In this document: positions 3,638-21,855 of the stretch, piece after piece
How positions within the stretch are numbered: position 1 is the stretch's first letter
How the letters are laid out: the number at the start of each line of letters is the position of its first letter
DNA from: a virus
Virus record (IMG/VR): IMGVR_UViG_3300009161_000247
Location: 1-23,173 of that record
Reading direction: 5' to 3' (one strand)
DNA length: 23,173 nt
Program-made: the position numbers and the translations under genes
Notes under the pieces: generated by a model
Database searches by the model: none
Seen by the model: only the letters and a program-made list of their open reading frames with translations
Told to the model about the DNA's origin: nothing

Positions 3638-3643
3638 TTGGTA

Positions 3644-6343
3644 ATGGACGTTACCGCGCAATTATCAAGAGTTTTACTTTTATTAGAACAATTCTGTTTA
3701 AAATTTAATGAGCAGAAAGAAAATACTACTTCCAGGTATGCTGAAGAAAGTAATAAAAATAAAATTAAAGATGGCTTTGGGCCTGATGAACCGTCTACTT
3801 TAACCTCAAATGAGAAAATAAGATGGAAAAGTATTGCAAAGATTTTTAATTCAACACTTGGATTTAGCTTACTTTCACTGTTTACTGGGCAGGATAAAAA
3901 GAGTAATTTAACTTCTAATGTAGTTGATGTTAGATTAATAGAAATATCAAAGAGAGCAGTAAAGGATCTTAACCAAGATAGTGAGAAATTAAAAGGATCT
4001 AGTAATAGCTGGTTTACAACTTTATTTAAAGGTATAGGGGCTGTAGCAGGTATTGCAGCACTAGGCACTGCAATATATTTTATTATTAAATCAATTGGCG
4101 GCATGCCATCTGTTGATGTAAAAACAATTTTACTAGTTGCGGGTGGGATACTAGCGTTTATTAGTATATTAGCCGGTCTAATAATTGTCCCTTGGAGTAG
4201 TATATTAAAAGGTTTAATAGCTTTAGGCGGTATTGCAGCAATTTTAAATTTAGCAATAGCCCCTGCAATGATAAAATTAAGTCAAGTTAAATGGAAGGAA
4301 GCTTTAGGTGGTATTATTGCAGCTGGTATAGCAATAACAACAGTTGCAGTATTAGCAACAACAATAGGTAAAACAATAAATACAGGCGCAGGCGCTTTAA
4401 GTATGTTAGCCGGCTTACTTGCAATTGCAGCAATTGCAGCAGTAATTCAATATTCAATTGCACCTGCAATGATGGAAATAAGCAAAGTACCGTGGGAGTC
4501 TGCTATGGGTAGTGTAATTGCAGCAGGATTAGCAATAACAACAATCGCATTATTAGCTGAGACAATAGGTGCTGCAATAGAAACTGGTGTAGGCGCAATT
4601 GCAGCAATAGCCGGTTTAATTACAATTGCTGCAATTGCTGCATTAATTCAATATTCAATTGCACCCGCAATGATGGCTATTAGTAAAGTACCGTGGGAGA
4701 CTGCTATGGGTAGTGTAATTGCAGCAGGATTAGCAATAACTGCAGTTGCAATATTAGCTGGGTCTATAGGTGCAGTAATGATAACTGGTGTAGGTGCTGT
4801 TGCAGCTATAGCCGGTTTACTTGCAATTGCAGCAATTGCAGCAGTAATTCAATATTCAATTGCACCAGCAATGATGGCTATTAGTAAAGTTCCGTGGGAG
4901 TCTGCACTTAAAGGTATTACAGTAGCAGGATTAGCAATAACAGGTTTTGCAACACTCGCTACTGTAATAGGTTCAATAATGATAACTGGTATAGGTGCTG
5001 TTGCAATTGGTGCAGGTTTAATTGCATTAACCGGGTTGGCACGAGTAATGGGATACATTGCAGAAAATTTACTAAAATATAATAAGGTGGACCCTGACAA
5101 ATTAACAAAATGTGCGACTGCAATTGTTAAATTAAACAAAGCTCTTGCAGCAGGTATAATAGGGTCTGGTACAAATTTAGCAGCTACCTTACTTGATTTC
5201 TTTTCTAAAGATCCAATAAAGTATTATGCAAGATTTGCTAATGAAATTAATGCTGTAAATCTCGAGTCTGTAGCAAATTCAATTAAAAATTTAAATGAAT
5301 CGTTAAGTTTAAAGTTAAATAGTAATGAAATACCTAAAATAGATTACCCAACGTACTATAGCTGATTCGCTAATGAAATTAATGCAGTAAATCTACAATC
5401 TGTAGCAGATTCAATTGCAAGTTTACATAATAGTTTATCTGTGCCTATTAATTCTGAGCCAATTAAGGATTATATAGATAATTACACTAAATTACTAAGT
5501 GTAATGTCGAATCCAGACATATTCAACAATTTAAATTTAAACACTGTTGTCGATAGTATTAAACGGTTTAATACAGCTATTACTGACTCGTTTAAAGACT
5601 TTAATATAGGATTAATTGTAGATAGTATTAATTCATTAGATGTAGCAATTAAAGACATATTTAAAGATTTTAATGTAAGTACAATTGTAGACAGTATTAA
5701 TGCATTAAATGAAGCTACAGCAGGCTTATTTAAAGATTTTAATGTAAGTACAATTGTAGACAGTATTAATGCATTAAATGAAGCTACAGCAGGCTTATTT
5801 AAAGACTTTAATGTAAGTACAATTGTAGATAGTATTAATGCATTAAATAAAGCTACAGCAGGCTTATTTAAAGACTTTAATGTAAGTACAATTGTAGACA
5901 GTATTAATGCATTTAATACCGCTATTACAGACTTATTTGCTGAATCAACAAGTTTATTATCAAATGTAGTTAGTAGCTTCAATCAATTAAATGAAATAGA
6001 TTTAACACCTATCAATAATAAAGTTAATGATTTAGTTCTTAATTTACGTAATACCTTTAATGATCCTATTGGTATTAAACTAAATATAGATAGCCAATTA
6101 AATACAATGCTAACAAATTTACACGAAAAAGAAGCAATAATTTTAACAAAACAGCTTGACCAATTGATTAATAACGGTAATAAATTAGATATTATTGCAA
6201 ATAATATTTCTAATTCGAAAAGCTCAACTCAATTAAGTGGCGATAATAATAAAAATACTTTTATTTCAAATAATGTGTCAGATACAAAAACTTCATTTTT
6301 AAAGAATATTGTGCTCGAAACATCTAACTTAGCTTACAGTTAA
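3644..6343 (+). CDS. Tail tape measure protein (gp29 role), interrupted by one in-frame TGA
   Basis: The frame runs 900 codons from ATG 3644 to TAA 6343, broken only by TGA at 5363-5365. The order is: an N-terminal charged helical part (residues 1-120), a very hydrophobic Ala/Ile/Gly-rich region (about 125-490) with several potential membrane helices in 67-residue repeats, a helical region with a 44-residue repeat pair, six 23-residue repeats (about 627-764), and a charged Asn/Lys/Ser-rich end. Membrane segments, periodic repeats, long helices and position between tube/hub-assembly and tube-cap genes are typical of tape measures, which set tail length and help DNA cross the inner membrane. 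Sequence after the TGA repeats sequence before it, so the two parts belong to one gene. If the TGA is not read through, the product stops at 573 residues. A GTG at 5441 could start a separate 300-residue part. The start could also be TTG 3638. Confidence 0.75.
4241..5047 (+). repeat. Four tandem 67-68-codon hydrophobic repeats in the tape measure
   Basis: Units start at 4241, 4445, 4646 and 4847, spaced 204, 201 and 201 bases. Each carries I-A-P-A-M-M-x-I-S-K-V-P-W-E-S followed by G-x-V-I-A-A-G-L-A-I-T and an Ala/Ile-rich membrane-like stretch. The last three are close at DNA level, including the shared ATTCAATATTCAATTGCACC block, so their amplification is recent. A looser related unit precedes 4241. 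Confidence 0.9.
5222..5443 (+). repeat. 44-codon repeat pair flanking the in-frame TGA
   Basis: Copy 1 (5222-5311) and copy 2 (5354-5443) lie 132 bases apart in the same frame. Both encode F-A-N-E-I-N-A-V-N-L-x-S-V-A-x-S-I-x-x-L-x-x-S-L-S. Copy 1 has AGA (Arg, 5231-5233) exactly where copy 2 has TGA (5363-5365). This shows the region after the TGA is the continuation of the same gene. Confidence 0.85.
5363..5365 (+). other. In-frame TGA within the tape measure gene
   Basis: TGA followed by T stands at the position of an Arg codon in the sister repeat, one base change from AGA or CGA. The frame stays open for 325 more codons on the far side. It could be a point nonsense mutation, a read-through codon or a base-call error. 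The stop is not followed by a C or by an obvious read-through stem. Confidence 0.7.
5522..5935 (+). repeat. Six tandem 69-bp (23-residue) repeats in the tape measure
   Basis: Units start at 5522, 5591, 5660, 5729, 5798 and 5867. The consensus is F-K-D-F-N-V-S-T-I-V-D-S-I-N-A-L-N-E-A-T-A-G-L. Units 3 to 5 are nearly identical in DNA, while units 1 and 2 have diverged. A 23-residue period with hydrophobic residues every 3-4 positions fits a long helix or coiled coil. The copy number could change by slippage and so alter tail length by whole units. Confidence 0.95.
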
Positions 6344-13481: not shown

Positions 13482-13502
13482 TATTTATGCCTAGCATAAA
13501 TA
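13482..13502. promoter_or_regulatory. Palindromic pair of divergent late-promoter-like elements
   Basis: TATTTATGC (13482-13490), a 3-base CTA spacer, and GCATAAATA (13494-13502) form a perfect 9-bp inverted repeat. Read on either strand it gives GCATAAATA. The plus copy ends 5 nt before the ATG of gp25 (13508), and the minus copy ends 6 nt before the ATG of the minus-strand gene (13475). The start-to-start distance leaves room for only one polymerase at a time. Confidence 0.6.
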
Positions 13503-13507
13503 TTTTT

Positions 13508-13984
13508 ATGTCAAATATTATAATAGACACGTTACCAGTCGCACAATTAGGTAGTCAGGGATATTTATATGCTGATCTTCATCTAGATTTAAAGCAAGGT
13601 ATTTTATTAAATGATCAGCTACACAAAACTCCGCAAATTTCGGATATTGTTAGCGATTTTGATTTAAATGCTGTACGCAATTCAATGGTTACTTTATTTA
13701 CAACTTCTCCTGGCGAAAAGATTTTATCACCAGAATACGGTCTTAATTTAAAAGGTTTTTTATTTAACCCAATTACAGAATATACTGGCAGAATAATTGC
13801 ATCAAAAATTATTAGAAATGTTAGCTTATTTGAACCTAGAGTCAAATTAACAGATATTGACGTTACTGCAGATATAGAAAGTCAGCAATATACTATAATT
13901 ATTCAGTTTGATATACCAACATTAGGAGTTGTAGGAGTCAAATTAGCCGGTGCAATTAATGATGTAGGATTTCAATTTATTTAA
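13508..13984 (+). CDS. gp25: Baseplate wedge protein gp25 (GPW/gp25 family)
   Basis: A 158-residue protein with the gp25/W pattern: D-L-N-A-V-R-N-S-M-V-T-L-F-T-T-S-P-G-E-K-I-L-S-P-E-Y-G as the core (about 51-77), then L-F-N-P-I-T, and a F-E-P-R-V-K-L-T-D-I-D-V segment. gp25 forms the inner disc of the baseplate, where the sheath is initiated, and binds gp6 and gp53. T4 gp25 has 132 residues; the extra ones are N-terminal. The ATG at 13508 is preferred over the in-frame one at 13487 because the promoter palindrome lies between them. The next gene begins 4 bases after the stop. Confidence 0.92.
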   Translation: MSNIIIDTLPVAQLGSQGYLYADLHLDLKQGILLNDQLHKTPQISDIVSDFDLNAVRNSMVTLFTTSPGEKILSPEYGLNLKGFLFNPITEYTGRIIASKIIRNVSLFEPRVKLTDIDVTADIESQQYTIIIQFDIPTLGVVGVKLAGAINDVGFQFI

Positions 13985-13988
13985 AATT

Positions 13989-14831
13989 ATGATTACATTT
14001 AAGCAATTTTTAGTAGAATCTAATTTTAATGTGTTACCGAGGTATATAGTAGATCAACTTAGAAAAATAGTCGCGGATTATATTGATAGAGGATGTAAGA
14101 CTATAAAATACAAACCAATTACTCACTTAAGTTTATTGGGATATGTAAACATAAATCATTTAAATAAAACTCAATATAAAATACCTTTAACTTTTACAAA
14201 ATTTTTAGATCAAGGTGGAGAAATGACAGAGATATATAAAAATGTTAATAATAAGTTAGTGTCCTCATTGCAGATTAGCATATCATTAAACGAAGGTAAA
14301 AATATTAAAAACAAAAAACAAGAAATAAAATTATATCAGTTACTTGTTCACGAGACATCGCATGTAATAGATGAGCTTTTAAAGAGATTTAAAACTAAAT
14401 CACAAGAGTCATACAATAAAATACGTATACGTATGGATCAACTGAATGCAGGGGCTCCTGCAAAAGATAATATATATTATGATGAAAGGGAATCATTATA
14501 TAGAGATTATATAATGCATCCAATTGAGAAGTCACCAATTTCATCCGAAATACATCACGCTATTGTGGAATATTATTTAAACATTAAAACAAGGCCAGCG
14601 AGGCAATTATTTTTAAAACAGTTGGAATTATTTATTAAGTCCGATCTCGATACATATTTTGGTAAAAATCCAGAGTTAAAGCTTCCACAATTTTTATTAT
14701 ATAGTGACTATTTGAGAGGTTTTTTTAAGAGGCTGGAGCCAGGTAGTAAATTATACAAAAAAATAAAATTAAGTTTACTAAACCTGTATAACAACTTATC
14801 CAGAGTTAAAGCTTCCACAATTTTTATATAG
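13989..14831 (+). CDS. HExxH metallopeptidase-like protein A with capsid-targeting-like N-terminus
   Basis: A 280-residue protein, first of three tandem paralogues. The first ten residues, M-I-T-F-K-Q-F-L-V-E, match the pattern of the T4 internal-protein targeting peptide (…Y/F-x-x-F-I-x-E), with the L-x-E that the T4 prohead protease cuts after. A conserved helical segment follows (S-N-F-N-V-L-P-x-Y-I, 11-20). The zinc-binding motif H-E-T-S-H is at 121-125, and a second conserved block H-P-I-E (177-180)…S-S-E-I-H-H (185-190) could supply the third ligand, as in gluzincins. It is coupled to gp25 (4 bases) and has no promoter of its own. A tandem duplication at its 3' end replaces its natural last residues, so the end S-R-V-K-A-S-T-I-F-I is read from the duplicate. 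Substrate unknown; activity untested. Confidence 0.7.
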   Translation: MITFKQFLVESNFNVLPRYIVDQLRKIVADYIDRGCKTIKYKPITHLSLLGYVNINHLNKTQYKIPLTFTKFLDQGGEMTEIYKNVNNKLVSSLQISISLNEGKNIKNKKQEIKLYQLLVHETSHVIDELLKRFKTKSQESYNKIRIRMDQLNAGAPAKDNIYYDERESLYRDYIMHPIEKSPISSEIHHAIVEYYLNIKTRPARQLFLKQLELFIKSDLDTYFGKNPELKLPQFLLYSDYLRGFFKRLEPGSKLYKKIKLSLLNLYNNLSRVKASTIFI

Positions 14832-14912
14832 TGACTAATTGAGAGGTTTTTTAAGAGGCTGGAGCCAAGTAGTAAATTATACAAAAAAATAAAATTAAGT
14901 TTACCAAATAAC
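14669..14912 (+). repeat. Tandem duplication of the 3' end of metallopeptidase-like gene A
   Basis: Copy 1 (14669-14798) is coding; copy 2 begins at 14799, exactly 130 bases on, with the same TCCAGAGTTAAAGCTTCCAC start. Copy 2 has lost TTA after the first 28 bases, one T in a T run, and several bases near its end, plus scattered changes. It is largely outside any gene and is decaying. It fills most of the 129-base gap before the next gene. Confidence 0.9.
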
Positions 14913-14949
14913 TTACTTGTACGTTATAACCTTAACTTAAGATAATTAC

Positions 14950-14955
14950 TAAATA
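14950..14955 (+). promoter_or_regulatory. Late-promoter-like TAAATA, 5 nt before gene B
   Basis: ACTAAATA ends exactly 5 nt before the ATG at 14961, in an otherwise degenerate stretch of duplicated sequence. It predicts a leaderless mRNA for metallopeptidase-like gene B. Confidence 0.55.
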
Positions 14956-14960
14956 TTAAT

Positions 14961-15773
14961 ATGCTACCATTTAAACAATTTATATTAGAATCAAACTTTA
15001 GCCAATTACCAAGTTATCTAATTGATCAAATTAAAGCATTAATTGCTGATTATGTTGGTACATCCTGCCAGATTGAGATTAGCCCAGGTAACTATGTTAA
15101 ACCGACTGATTATAGTCTTTTAGGACATATAAAAATAGACCATCCTCAAAATAACTATGCATGGGCAGCGATTCAAGTGCCTATAAGGTTTGTGGATGCC
15201 TTGACCAAAGGTGGAGGGTTTAATGAGAAATTAATGCTTATTGGTATCTCATTAGCGGAATTTGAATATATTCATTACATGGACAACCGCAAAAAATCAA
15301 ATTTGTTTAGCACGCTTGTTCACGAGACACAACATGCAATTGATATAATTAGAAACAAATTTAGCGATAAAACGAAAGTGAAATATTATAAAGCAGTAGA
15401 TAGACTTAGGAAAGCAGTACTAAAATCGGAAGAGGATCCTGCATATAGAGATTATATACAGCATCCTGTCGAAATGCATCCAGTTTCATCTGAAATTTAT
15501 CACACTATTACAGAATATTATTCAAACCTTAAAGTAGAATCTGAAAAACTATTATTTTTAGAAGAATTAAAGGCATTTATTAAGTATGGTCTCGATAAAT
15601 ATGTTGGGACAGGAAAAGTGTTAAAACTACCACCATATTTTAATACTAATTATTATAAGGATTTTTTAGAGAGTTTAATTCCGGGCAGTCAACCATATAA
15701 ACAATTTAAATTAAGATTACTGAACCTGTATAATAACTTACGCGCAGTTGCACCACGTTTTAGCGTAAAATAA
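14961..15773 (+). CDS. HExxH metallopeptidase-like protein B with capsid-targeting-like N-terminus
   Basis: A 270-residue paralogue of the neighbours on both sides. It begins M-L-P-F-K-Q-F-I-L-E, with the predicted prohead-protease cut after Glu10. The region S-N-F-S-Q-L-P-S-Y-L then follows. H-E-T-Q-H lies at 121-125, in L-V-H-E-T-Q-H-A-I-D. The downstream block has H-P-V-E at 168-171 and S-S-E at 176-178, followed by I-Y-H-T-I-T-E-Y-Y; Glu171 or Glu178 is the likely third zinc ligand. The C-terminal third is helical and ends with L-L-N-L-Y-N-N-L-R, shared by all three. Unlike A it has its own late promoter at 14950, so each copy may be separately expressed. No signal peptide or membrane helix is visible, consistent with head packaging rather than secretion. 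Confidence 0.72.
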   Translation: MLPFKQFILESNFSQLPSYLIDQIKALIADYVGTSCQIEISPGNYVKPTDYSLLGHIKIDHPQNNYAWAAIQVPIRFVDALTKGGGFNEKLMLIGISLAEFEYIHYMDNRKKSNLFSTLVHETQHAIDIIRNKFSDKTKVKYYKAVDRLRKAVLKSEEDPAYRDYIQHPVEMHPVSSEIYHTITEYYSNLKVESEKLLFLEELKAFIKYGLDKYVGTGKVLKLPPYFNTNYYKDFLESLIPGSQPYKQFKLRLLNLYNNLRAVAPRFSVK

Positions 15774-15775
15774 TC

Positions 15776-15783
15776 TATAAATA
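15776..15783 (+). promoter_or_regulatory. Full late consensus TATAAATA, 5 nt before gene C
   Basis: An exact TATAAATA lies between the TAA of gene B and the ATG of gene C (15789), with 5 nt between motif and ATG. It is one of the two full-consensus matches at this spacing in the window. Confidence 0.65.
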
Positions 15784-15788
15784 ATAAT

Positions 15789-16628
15789 ATGTTACAATTT
15801 AAACAATTTATATTGGAATCTAATTTTAATCAGTTACCAAGTTATATTGCGGATCAAATTAAAAAAATCATTACTGATTATATTGACAGCGGCTGCCAGG
15901 TAAAGGTAACTGATTATAGCTGGAAAGGAACCTATGTAAAACCTCTAAATGGTAGCTCTTTAGGTCATATAAACATAAACCATCTAAATGAGTATAAGAT
16001 TACTCAAGTGCCTATAAAATTTTCAGATAAGATTAGCGAAGGTGGGATGTTTAAATCAAGAATTGTCCCGCCACGTCCTAATGGTGATACAATAGCAATG
16101 TGGATTGAGATATCATTAATTCAATTTGAAGGTATTGAAAACGACAAAGAAAGCATATCAAATTTGTATAGCGTACTTGTTCACGAGACACAACATGCAG
16201 TTGATAGATTTAGAAACATATTTAAAAAGAAAAAGAAATATTTTAAAGCAATAAAGCAGCTTGACCATGCATATGAAAATGATTTGGATCCGCTTCCAGC
16301 ATATAAAAAGTATGTACAGCATCCAATTGAGCAGTCAGCAATTTCATCTGAAATTTATCACTCTATTACAGAACATTATTCAAAACTTGAAACAAAATTC
16401 GAAAAGCAATTATTTTTAAAAGAATTAGAAGTATTTATTAAGTCAGATAATATTTACAATACATATTTTGCGCCAAGTGCTAAGTTTTATCCCCCTATAT
16501 ATTTTGATACTGAATTTTTTAATGGACTTTTTAAGAGTTTGACACCTAATAGTAAAATATATAAAAAAGTAAAATTAAATTTACTAAACCTGTATAATAA
16601 CTTACGCGTACAATCCAACATTACTTAG
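15789..16628 (+). CDS. HExxH metallopeptidase-like protein C with capsid-targeting-like N-terminus
   Basis: A 279-residue third paralogue. It starts M-L-Q-F-K-Q-F-I-L-E followed by S-N-F-N-Q-L-P-S-Y-I. H-E-T-Q-H lies at 132-136, the shift coming from an insertion near residues 90-105 (R-I-V-P-P-R-P-N-G-D). H-P-I-E is at 178-181 and S-S-E at 186-188. The spacing from HExxH to H-P-x-E (45 residues) equals that of B (46) and is shorter than in A (55). B and C are closer to each other than to A in the motif (H-E-T-Q-H against H-E-T-S-H). The zinc motif is kept in all three while surrounding loops vary, which suggests selection for activity with differing targets; that is inference. The stop is TAG. 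Confidence 0.72.
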   Translation: MLQFKQFILESNFNQLPSYIADQIKKIITDYIDSGCQVKVTDYSWKGTYVKPLNGSSLGHININHLNEYKITQVPIKFSDKISEGGMFKSRIVPPRPNGDTIAMWIEISLIQFEGIENDKESISNLYSVLVHETQHAVDRFRNIFKKKKKYFKAIKQLDHAYENDLDPLPAYKKYVQHPIEQSAISSEIYHSITEHYSKLETKFEKQLFLKELEVFIKSDNIYNTYFAPSAKFYPPIYFDTEFFNGLFKSLTPNSKIYKKVKLNLLNLYNNLRVQSNIT

Positions 16629-16637
16629 TCTAATTAC

Positions 16638-16643
16638 TAAATA
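16638..16643 (+). promoter_or_regulatory. Late-promoter-like TAAATA, 5 nt before gp6
   Basis: ACTAAATA lies in the 20-base gap after the TAG at 16628 and ends 5 nt before the ATG at 16649. It predicts a leaderless mRNA for gp6 and the following gene. Confidence 0.55.
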
Positions 16644-16648
16644 ATGAT

Positions 16649-18454
16649 ATGGCAGCAAGTAATTTTACAGAGTTTAACTTACCAAAACAAGCATATGCAG
16701 CATTTGATGCTACATCGCTTCGGGATCTGATAGTCCAGCGCTTACGCAATAGCGGCCTGTTTCCAGATGTAGATTATAATGGTAGTAATATATCTGGTCT
16801 AATCGATGTTGTTGCTTATACATACCACGTACTTTTATTTTATTTGAACAATACTGCCTCGGAAAGTTTATTTAATCAGGCAGAATTATATGAGAATATT
16901 AATAAGATTGTACAGCTTATTGGATATAAACCAATGGGACCACAAACAGCTATTTTAAATTTTAGCTTAACATTATTAAATACATTACCGCTAAATTTTT
17001 ATACATTAAAACGTTATTCAAATTTATCTATAAACGGTGTATCATATTCATTTAAAGATGATATTTATTTTGAAAAAACCACAACTGCAAATGAAAATGT
17101 AGATTCTGTTGGAGAAAACAACTTTCTTTTTCAGGGCATATATAGGGAATATCCGTTAATTACAGCAATTGGTGAGAATTTCGAGCAATACAGTATTACA
17201 ACTATTAATCCAAATACTTCAGAGTCTTTTGTCGATTATAATAATATAGATGTGTATGTATTAGACAGTAATACAAATACATGGTATCAGTGGAGTGAGG
17301 TTGAAACATTATTTTTTGCAACTATTACTGATAGAGTATTTGAAAAGCGCTATAACGAAAACGGTATAATTGAAATTAAATTTGGTAATAATATTAATGG
17401 TAAGCGACTAAATGCTGGGGATGTGGTTGCTATCTATTATTTAGAAAGTAACGGAACTGGTGGATTAATTGGTCCAAATTCATTAAATTCAAATAATATT
17501 AATCTGTTTAATACAAGTCAATTTAATTCAATTAGTATAGACATTTTTGATAATACGTTAAATTTTATTAATTCAACAACTAAAGGCTCATTATATTTAC
17601 AAAACATATATTCATCAACAAACCCAACTATTAATGAAAGTGTAGAGTCAATAAGAGCAAATGCGCCTGTTTTATTTGCAGCTCAAAATAGATTAGTTAC
17701 AGTTACTGACTATGAAGCATATATACTGAAAAATTTCTCAAATTTAATTACCGATACTGCTGTAATTAATAACCAACAATATGTATCTGAGTATTTAAAG
17801 TATTATTTTGATATTGGACTTGAGCGACCAAATGATGATGCGAGAGTATTGCTCAACCAGGTAAATTTTAATGATTCGTGCGATTTTAACAATGTATATT
17901 GCTTTACTGTCCCTCTAATAGCTGCTATTATTAATGAAACTACTCCTAATTATTTAAATAAGACATTGAAGCAGCTAATTATTAATAAATTAAATACCCA
18001 AAAAATTATTACTCAAAATGTTGTCCTATCAGACCCTGTATATCAAGCATTTACTATTGGTATACAAAAAAATAATGAATTACCTACCCCTAGTACATAC
18101 CTTGATACTAAAATAATAATTACAAGAAATCTTAATTCTGTTCAATCAAAAGAACAAATAAAAAATACATTTTGTAATAAAATAATTGATTTCTTTAATC
18201 AATCAAACAATAAATTAGGACAGTTTATTAATCTTGCGCAATTAAATGTCGACTTATTATCAATAGATGGAGTAAAAGAATTTAAAATTACTAACGGTGA
18301 GATAGAATTAAAAAGATTAAATGTAATTTATTGGAACCCGACATACGAAAAAAACGATATTACTTCAACATCTCAAAATATCCAATTAGCTGTATTTAAA
18401 TTTCCATTCTTATATAAAAGTAGTACTTTAAAGAATCAAATTGAGATCGTATAA
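16649..18454 (+). CDS. gp6: Baseplate wedge protein gp6 (baseplate J-like)
   Basis: A 601-residue protein. The N-terminus is very characteristic of gp6 of T4-like marine phages: F-D-A-T-S-L-R-D-L-I-V-Q-R-L (19-32), then D-Y-N-G-S-N-I-S-G-L-I-D-V-V-A-Y-T-Y-H, L-L-F-Y-L-N-N-T-A-S-E-S, and A-E-L-Y-E-N-I-N-K-I-V-Q-L-I-G-Y-K-P. The middle has the J-like segment E-S-V-E-S-I-R-A-N-A-P…A-A-Q-N-R-L-V-T-V-T-D-Y-E-A-Y-I (about 330-360). gp6 dimers knit the wedges into the continuous baseplate ring together with gp25 and gp53. T4 gp6 has 660 residues. The next gene follows after 2 bases and is probably co-transcribed. Confidence 0.88.
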   Translation: MAASNFTEFNLPKQAYAAFDATSLRDLIVQRLRNSGLFPDVDYNGSNISGLIDVVAYTYHVLLFYLNNTASESLFNQAELYENINKIVQLIGYKPMGPQTAILNFSLTLLNTLPLNFYTLKRYSNLSINGVSYSFKDDIYFEKTTTANENVDSVGENNFLFQGIYREYPLITAIGENFEQYSITTINPNTSESFVDYNNIDVYVLDSNTNTWYQWSEVETLFFATITDRVFEKRYNENGIIEIKFGNNINGKRLNAGDVVAIYYLESNGTGGLIGPNSLNSNNINLFNTSQFNSISIDIFDNTLNFINSTTKGSLYLQNIYSSTNPTINESVESIRANAPVLFAAQNRLVTVTDYEAYILKNFSNLITDTAVINNQQYVSEYLKYYFDIGLERPNDDARVLLNQVNFNDSCDFNNVYCFTVPLIAAIINETTPNYLNKTLKQLIINKLNTQKIITQNVVLSDPVYQAFTIGIQKNNELPTPSTYLDTKIIITRNLNSVQSKEQIKNTFCNKIIDFFNQSNNKLGQFINLAQLNVDLLSIDGVKEFKITNGEIELKRLNVIYWNPTYEKNDITSTSQNIQLAVFKFPFLYKSSTLKNQIEIV

Positions 18455-21400: not shown

Positions 21401-21852
21401 TTCATGGTATAAATCTTGGCAGTGAATTAAACTTCTTTACAACAACATTAACTGCTGGTTCCGCATCTTTGCCAATTGTTGCATATGAAAAGTTTAGCAA
21501 GAATTATTATTATATAAACACAAATATCTTGAGTGCATCGTATGTTAATATAAATACAACAAACAACACATACAAGTTATCTGCTTATAATGATAGGTGG
21601 GGATGGGGCTTAGTCTTGCCTAATAATTATGTATCAACTGATATTTCAAATTACTATACGTTTTATAATTATATATCAACATTTGAAAATACATATATTG
21701 GGGGATTAATTAACTGGAACGATGAGAATACAACAATAGATAAAACTCAGCGTAACATTACATATGTAGATAGTGTCTTTAACAATATGATAACTTATCA
21801 ATTTGCGAAGGGTCTACACTTATTAACTAGTGATGCTAACATTGATGCGTAA
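18457..21852 (+). CDS. Large baseplate/tail adhesin-like protein with PKD domain and propeller-like repeats
   Basis: A 1131-residue protein directly after gp6, where T4 has gp7. A PKD domain is clear at about 25-100: Y-W-D-F-G-D-G-T (50-57), then H-Y-Y-K-L-P-G-V-Y-N-V-T and a closing T-V-T-V. At about 530-780 NHL-like strands repeat: P-S-S-I-A-F-D-S-N-K-N-A-W-V-T, P-S-S-V-D-V-D-R-S-N-N-V-W-V-T, A-D-Q-L-I-V-D-K-D-D-N-V-W-A-V, and L-N-G-I-A-I-T-S-N-N-E-L-F-V-I, suggesting a β-propeller. The C-terminal 250 residues are Tyr/Asn-rich with W-G-W-G-L near the end. Such domains bind carbohydrate or protein, so a role in receptor contact or wedge architecture is likely. No signal peptide. A role corresponding to gp7 is inference from order. 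Confidence 0.7.
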   Translation: MSQNTVFSRFNTTDYTNQPILTSYSLSITPFTFKPVLDDVSNIYSNRKIYWDFGDGTFSESVTASHYYKLPGVYNVTCFLYDKNGEAYRNSFIQTVTVYDLITDIIKIVLPVSNTINYSSHVSNPFTVYRFNSWQNYNIITSAGYTINLYASGSNSPFITSENYNKDKFAHLKPYSKFIIKEFNNHTQSLEDIVVDSINTSNEEIYFNVQNNNLVRCLPTDTNACFVGTSGLKDVYFVDDLGVNTVLYVSGSDTCLTTFNDIPTNIFAYFNYNKLDYDSKDIPKSEYKVINAVSNNIEYTFYNQLSSSQLVITSNGLDGDGETYDTFNIDQNKFQSQKISFVIRAKDSDNYPSKFINTLTLIDNNQELTPNTIKIQTMSGNNIVLPITAISNFGVLSSQTNGGYFRGYIEPSISCENVYLSAIANLAFYNSNPNSPLVIAHPQSKYIHSINLNSYNQPITNTLNLTGVSTISLITESTIKNGVCSTYSMWAGDADVDYIKKFNSNGEILSTFNLSAIATTANSNVSLLGNLSSAAPSSIAFDSNKNAWVTLFDAVSTIRINNTTGLVDRVLYPNLTNTDNSLSADYARLSGFGGGNSLSPSSVDVDRSNNVWVTYSNPLSSYIIKYDDSGNVTLQIPLTAGYSADQLIVDKDDNVWAVYKDYLTKTTELTGYKDCLLYLSAADTNITKIVPLVGSIGDITLDLDQLPIVTFNKNSLVRINNKTTFDTTTYTISSSPFNLSKNISDLNGIAITSNNELFVISDPSKCIFNINLDIAVPSPVTSVYVYLSSNEIAPPVTQNSVYSYGDWTGLRWNNKYSSATIKQLIFFTETISCTSNNFNIYPATGKYEIGKINENVDFTELYKANTFQESLMLKPALYDNFLGTIVGNISSNQNTIGKRVYEKISNFTDNVYNVDTCNISSLLSLQTLLNEPSIQFTKYSYIFPANINRIMDLASVKITKMWGEANKFNQNYNKYGLTDSDIHGINLGSELNFFTTTLTAGSASLPIVAYEKFSKNYYYINTNILSASYVNINTTNNTYKLSAYNDRWGWGLVLPNNYVSTDISNYYTFYNYISTFENTYIGGLINWNDENTTIDKTQRNITYVDSVFNNMITYQFAKGLHLLTSDANIDA

Positions 21853-21855
21853 ATA
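21850..21855 (+). promoter_or_regulatory. Late-promoter-like TAAATA overlapping a stop codon
   Basis: GTAAATA, whose TAA is the stop of the preceding gene, ends 5 nt before the ATG at 21861. It shares both spacing and spacer (ATAAT) with the element before gene C at 15776. Confidence 0.5.

Follow-up and report, generated by a model that had tools for sequence, protein, structure and literature searches.

What are three tandem HExxH proteins doing inside the baseplate gene cluster of a T4-like phage, and why does each of them begin like an internal head protein of T4? The window, by which we mean the whole 23,173-base virus record analysed here, is a fragment of a T4-like myovirus, an environmental phage, and encodes the C-terminus of the tail sheath, tail tubes, a dUTPase, the large subunit of the clamp loader and the baseplate wedge proteins gp25 and gp6. 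Between the end of gp25 (13984) and the start of gp6 (16649) lie, in tandem and on one strand (+), three genes delimited by their open reading frames and by alignment: HX1 (13989–14831; 280 aa), HX2 (14961–15773; 270 aa) and HX3 (15789–16628; 279 aa), each led by a capsid-targeting-like sequence (CTS). Their pairwise identities in BLASTP are 39–48%; as paralogues, they therefore count as one origin followed by retention. An earlier, sequence-only reading of this DNA had reported that all three start with M-x-x-F-K-Q-F-[LI]-x-E-S-N-F, with Glu at position 10, and carry HET[SQ]H followed by an HPxE...SSE block, and alignment confirms both statements. In HX1 numbering, the invariant residues are M1, F4, K5, Q6, F7, E10, S11, N12 and F13 in the N-terminal part, and H121, E122, T123, H125, D128, H177, P178, E180, S185, S186 and E187 in the rest.

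The same reading had proposed injected zinc peptidases. Of this proposal, loading into the head, trimming and injection are well supported computationally, whereas the peptidase half draws on sequence only, the structural models being too weak to contribute. Taken whole, we consider it reasonably probable that HX1–HX3 form a new zincin-like family of metallopeptidases that is packaged in the virion and injected, and that would cleave host proteins. This best explanation takes in the motifs, the paralogy, the insertion site, the specificity of the leader, the residue-11 (P1′) signature and a far homologue of the same build, and from them predicts packaging, cleavage, injection, zinc binding, catalysis and a host target.

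The leaders read MITFKQFLVE in HX1 (13989–14018, +; predicted cut before Ser11), MLPFKQFILE in HX2 (14961–14990, +) and MLQFKQFILE in HX3 (15789–15818, +). In the T4 record, IPII starts with MKTYQEFIAE|AR, IPIII with MKTYQEFIAE|AS and IPI with MKTFKEF...ITE|AT, where the bars mark the established T4 cut sites; the T4 leader cited in the earlier reading, MKTYQEFIAE, is indeed that of IPII and IPIII. Mutagenesis of the IPIII leader assigned residues 4 and 7 mainly to targeting and residues 8 and 10 to processing (PMC9026906). All four mapped positions are kept in HX1–HX3, with an aromatic residue at 4 and 7, Leu or Ile at 8 and Glu at 10, so that the three proteins carry the aromatic pair and the [LIV]-x-E cut site by which we define a T4-type internal-protein leader of 10–19 residues. 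As a control, we searched for M-x-x-[FY]-x-x-[FY]-[LIVM]-x-E at the N-terminus: among 138 ORFs in 36 kb of T4 it picked out IPII and IPIII only, and it occurred in none of 2,819 ORFs from 76 loci of gp6-bearing relatives of the window and at none of 3,693 internal Met residues in those relatives. The resemblance of the HX leaders to the T4 leader exceeds chance.

Downstream of the leader, HX1 has HETSH (H121–H125; 14349–14363) and a P-I-E motif (14520–14528) whose E180 is the proposed third zinc ligand; HX2 has HETQH (15321–15335) and P-V-E (15465–15473), and HX3 HETQH (16182–16196) and P-I-E (16323–16331), with the Glu proposed for the same role and all motifs on the + strand. An Asp stands three residues after HET[SQ]H in each. 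A profile search of related contigs with the trio recovered one homologue, at 167237–167998 of the 199 kb relative G001 (E = 2e-4), through a match outside the leader. It is collinear with the trio to the C-terminus at 23–26% identity and keeps a leader (MLSFKQYISE), HELYH, DPVE, in which the P and E of the HX1 motif recur, and the downstream Glu, with Gln in place of the Asp three residues past HExxH. The G001 gene is single-copy and far from the gp25–gp6 junction; the gene thus occurs at different loci, while leader and active-site motif stay together. Further homologues of the trio were absent from viral contigs scanned with full and catalytic-core alignments, from the genome-contig scan and from tblastn against 50,697 phage records. 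The HExxH of zincins and gluzincins is present in all four proteins, as is the P-x-E, which is predicted to be helical. Secondary structure prediction gives an N-terminal helix, strands, the HExxH helix and a helix with P-x-E, which fits the order given for zincin-like MPTases (PMC5512222). On the strength of the HExxH, the downstream P-x-E and the zincin-like succession of predicted elements, we regard the assignment of HX1–HX3 as putative zinc peptidases as moderately supported.

As to the gluzincin fold that had been expected, the predicted order of elements is zincin-like, but no family or fold matched. The HX proteins gave no significant match in Pfam, PHROG, NCBIfam or PDB and no match to MPTase-PolyVal (PF18818) at E ≤ 1, and they scored 13–14 bits against Peptidase_M91/Tox-MPTase2, under the cut-off of 25. 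AF2 models from 3-row and 4-row alignments reached pLDDT values of 46 and 59, at which a zinc site cannot be made out; PDB fold searches with these low-confidence models returned unrelated helical bundles (Z < 8) and no zincin among the matches listed. With the zinc fold shown by neither models nor fold searches, one could suppose that HX is packaged and injected through its leader while its HExxH domain is catalytically idle or inhibitor-like, as in T4 Ip1–3, which share the leader only and inhibit GmrSD enzymes (PMC12373910). We hold this unlikely, given that four homologues whose remainder is 23–26% identical agree in the two His and the Glu of HExxH and in the P-x-E Glu, and that other HExxH proteins bear the same leader. 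HExxH alone was rejected as a peptidase call, for it also arises by chance in His-rich stretches of several leader proteins (L124, L165, L169 and L174). The HX family profile scores another leader-bearing protein, with HELQH and SPMEL (L131:2651–3535), at E = 7e-5; since part of this score comes from the leader, we count the protein as no more than a possible member of the family.

The setting of the genes bears on a further alternative. The triplet is bordered on its left edge by the gp25-type gene (13487–13984, +) and on its right edge by the gp6-type gene (16649–18454, +). Both genes were found in 75 relatives, and in each of these gp25 is directly followed by gp6; the 2.7 kb HX triplet is therefore an insertion. 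HX1 bears a partial tandem duplication of its own 3′ end, with a first copy at 14668–14782 (+) and a decayed second copy at 14798–14908 (+); its last residues thus derive from the repeat, and the duplication is a mark of rearrangement. The stop codon of HX1 falls within the second copy of this 14668–14908 duplication. Repeats also occur elsewhere in the window: the protein encoded at 5441–6343 contains several near-identical consecutive repeats of FKDFNVSTIVDSINALNEATAGL, and that at 3638–5365 about four long hydrophobic repeats (IIAAGIAITTVAVLATTIG...); the latter protein is tape-measure-like and is listed with a TTG start.

TAAATA boxes, which resemble the T4 late box, begin 11–13 nt upstream of the ATG of HX2, HX3, gp6, both tail tube genes and two others. 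Those of HX2 (14950–14955, +; late-promoter-like) and HX3 (15778–15783, +; inside TATAAATA) each lie 11 nt upstream of the ATG, and HX1–HX3 are probably made late, with which the boxes are consistent. Across the window, TAAATA sites stand at 597–602, 1290–1295, 14950–14955, 15778–15783, 16638–16643 and 21850–21855. The fixed spacing of 11–13 nt leaves almost no 5′ leader and no visible Shine–Dalgarno sequence, which could reflect either late promoters whose mRNAs are nearly leaderless or a host that initiates translation without Shine–Dalgarno signals. Two HX genes thus share their box with a baseplate gene, and the trio lies in the baseplate cluster between gp25 and gp6, a position compatible with a tail role; moreover, a zincin has been suggested to act in the maturation of certain jumbo phages (PMC7824862). 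HX could accordingly be a head- or tail-maturation peptidase acting on structural proteins in the particle or baseplate rather than a host-directed effector. We consider this improbable: HX is absent from the gp25–gp6 junction in 75 of 75 relatives and patchy in whole contigs, and three divergent copies are not what one would expect of a core maturation enzyme.

Delivery into the host is better viewed through the wider distribution of the leader. Three DNA-pattern scans of viral contigs recovered 468 non-redundant leader proteins, which, once the leader is removed, fall into about 150 (151) similarity families by single linkage, the largest group being inflated by low-complexity sequence. A looser pattern that had played no part in retrieval matched 126 times within the first 41 residues of an open frame and 7 times elsewhere. 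The leader is a portable module, which stands at the N-terminus of proteins from about 150 families that have no other relationship. At residue 11, which the searches left free, Ala, Ser, Gly or Thr occurs in 50% of the 151 families as against 26% in the background (p = 2e-10) and Ala in 24% as against 6%, and from residue 12 onwards composition is again at background. This enrichment matches the expectation for cleavage after Glu10, that is, a P1′ signature, and could be inflated by shared ancestry if residue 11 was inherited with the leader module. A chance likeness, in which a short amphipathic helix serves some other purpose on ordinary cytoplasmic accessory peptidases made after infection, is very improbable: the motif is only ten residues long and HX processing is predicted only, but the pattern's absence from the control ORFs and internal Met residues, the P1′ signature, the same leader on Acb1 and ADP-ribosyltransferases (ARTs), and a G001 homologue that keeps 5–7 of 10 leader residues while being 22–24% identical elsewhere all speak against it.

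The cargo of this module is varied. Pfam searches with 121 leader representatives identified Acb1 (anti-CBASS), S-adenosylmethionine lyase, ART-PolyVal, ADPrib_exo_Tox, DUF3990, a zeta-toxin-like kinase and GNAT, whereas 121 non-leader ORFs from the same loci matched replication and structural genes (helicases, UvsY, gp23; best 25 of 71 families). Several leader-bearing families are of host-takeover or counter-defence types; PADLOC matches among the leader proteins were few and weak. At L282:2346–2852 (−), an Acb1 (5.7e-23) whose domain starts at residue 17 has gained the N-terminal leader MMSFKQFIAE, which suggests from its sequence that some phages may inject Acb1; the T4 Acb1 is presumably the product of gene 57B, which adjoins ipI, and has no leader. 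Runs of five to seven leader genes (L121:413–4565, L128:5870–10325, L154:5380–13689 and L251:3–11136) contain many ADP-ribosyltransferase-like proteins (LYHxT/LYRG...), mostly without a Pfam match. On the contig of L040, a relative of the window phage, L284:3838–6587 includes a ligase-like protein with the leader MITFKQFLLE and a KIDG motif, whose gene adjoins one for a nucleotidyltransferase-like protein (variant leader MRFDDLVNEI) and one for a small basic protein. A small, very basic protein starting with MEF[DN]KLVAEILLEKAG, possibly a variant leader, is encoded at L030:8854–9153, with equivalents in L024, L042, L043, L060 and L061; in these relatives its gene lies upstream of gp25–gp6.

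A second family joins the leader to HExxH. The protein at L248:7040–7864 has a leader (MKTFKQFILE|K), HELTHWID and a downstream Glu. Its gene takes the fourth place in a block of six adjacent leader genes, another of which specifies an ART-PolyVal protein. Vibrio phages PVA8/PC-Liy1 and F86 and Microcystis phage Mel-JY01 encode homologues, each annotated as hypothetical, that retain the L-x-E site at their N-termini (MITFNEHLVE|A, MIIFNQLNE|K and MQLNE|R). These proteins resemble HX in their CTS-like start, downstream Glu and similar length, their HExxH reading HE[LI][ST]HW, yet they form a separate family, and the Mel-JY01 leader is shortened: in a profile comparison with HX, only 24 columns around HExxH align (probability 75%). 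The match of the L248 family to MPTase-PolyVal (PF18818), at E = 0.34, is below significance. More tentatively, and with somewhat less conviction than we attach to HX itself, we propose that the internal-protein leader is the common tag by which T4-like phages of lakes and seas load an extensive arsenal of injected effectors, most of it undescribed. At least two HExxH families in this arsenal may cleave immune or regulatory proteins of the host during the initial minutes of infection, and tandem copies would diversify against host variants.

Trimming requires a protease. Of 14 contigs whose gp6 links them to the window, 8 carry a gene for a gp21-type Peptidase_S77 (E down to 3e-37); in G001 the gene sits in a T4-like head cluster together with scaffold-like and gp23-like major capsid genes, both named by eye from sequence. 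The window contig, a 23 kb fragment, does not include a prohead protease gene. That HX1–HX3 would be loaded in the head, trimmed and injected is well supported, because the four CTS positions are kept, the leader is portable, the P1′ signature is present, related contigs encode the protease and the far homologue has the same build. In the mechanism that we propose, the proteins would be synthesised late, and their ten-residue N-terminus would bind the prohead core through aromatic residues 4 and 7. A gp21-type prohead protease would then cut after Glu10, at [LI]-x-E, and the trimmed enzyme, retained in the head, would pass into the host along with the DNA. Once inside, it would hydrolyse peptide bonds of host proteins by means of a zinc ion bound by HExxH and by the P-x-E Glu; these proteins would most likely be of defence or regulatory type, a plausible target class that we infer. 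HX1–HX3 thus suggest a phage that fires proteases into bacteria at infection.

With HX, proteolytic cargo would join the T4 internal-protein system, in which the Ip1–3 inhibitors and Alt have been characterised. T4 Alt, an ADP-ribosyltransferase, modifies RNA polymerase; leader cargo in other phages includes ADP-ribosyltransferases, the same activity, although the N-terminus of Alt itself does not fit the ten-residue pattern. T4 Ip1–3 have only the leader in common and, once injected, inhibit type IV restriction enzymes (PMC12373910); they thus provide a precedent for injected, variable cargo. Like IPI, IPII and IPIII, the HX proteins have aromatic residues at leader positions 4 and 7, Leu or Ile at 8 and Glu at 10, and the T4 system and the leader phages alike combine variable cargo with several such genes per genome. 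They differ in that HX cargo is a HExxH protein of 270–280 aa, whereas the T4 internal proteins are small inhibitors without enzymatic motifs, and in that packaging and cleavage, measured for the latter, are predicted for HX. Across T4-like phages, proteins injected for counter-defence, the leader-bearing Acb1 among them, appear to be recognisable by the ten-residue pattern at their N-terminus; if confirmed, the leader would be a cheap, testable predictor of phage-injected effectors, most of which are now listed as hypothetical proteins.

Among peptidases, the nearest comparison is with the MPTase-PolyVal domain (PF18818) of polyvalent proteins, which are thought to be delivered with DNA and whose phage-type clade has a conserved upstream His near the end of a predicted strand and an Asp three residues after HExxH (PMC5512222). 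HX shares with it a predicted HExxH helix followed by a predicted Glu helix, the upstream His and the Asp at +3 (D128), the last of which the G001 homologue, with Gln, does not share with that clade. Unlike MPTase-PolyVal, HX is a stand-alone protein with a CTS rather than a domain of a giant polypeptide, and no significant HMM match connects the two. Set against the open-access literature, the novelty appears to lie in the catalytic class predicted for HX and in how varied the cargo is; earlier reports of CTS-led peptidases may exist elsewhere. On the best reading, HX would represent a new zincin-type class of cargo for a known delivery system.
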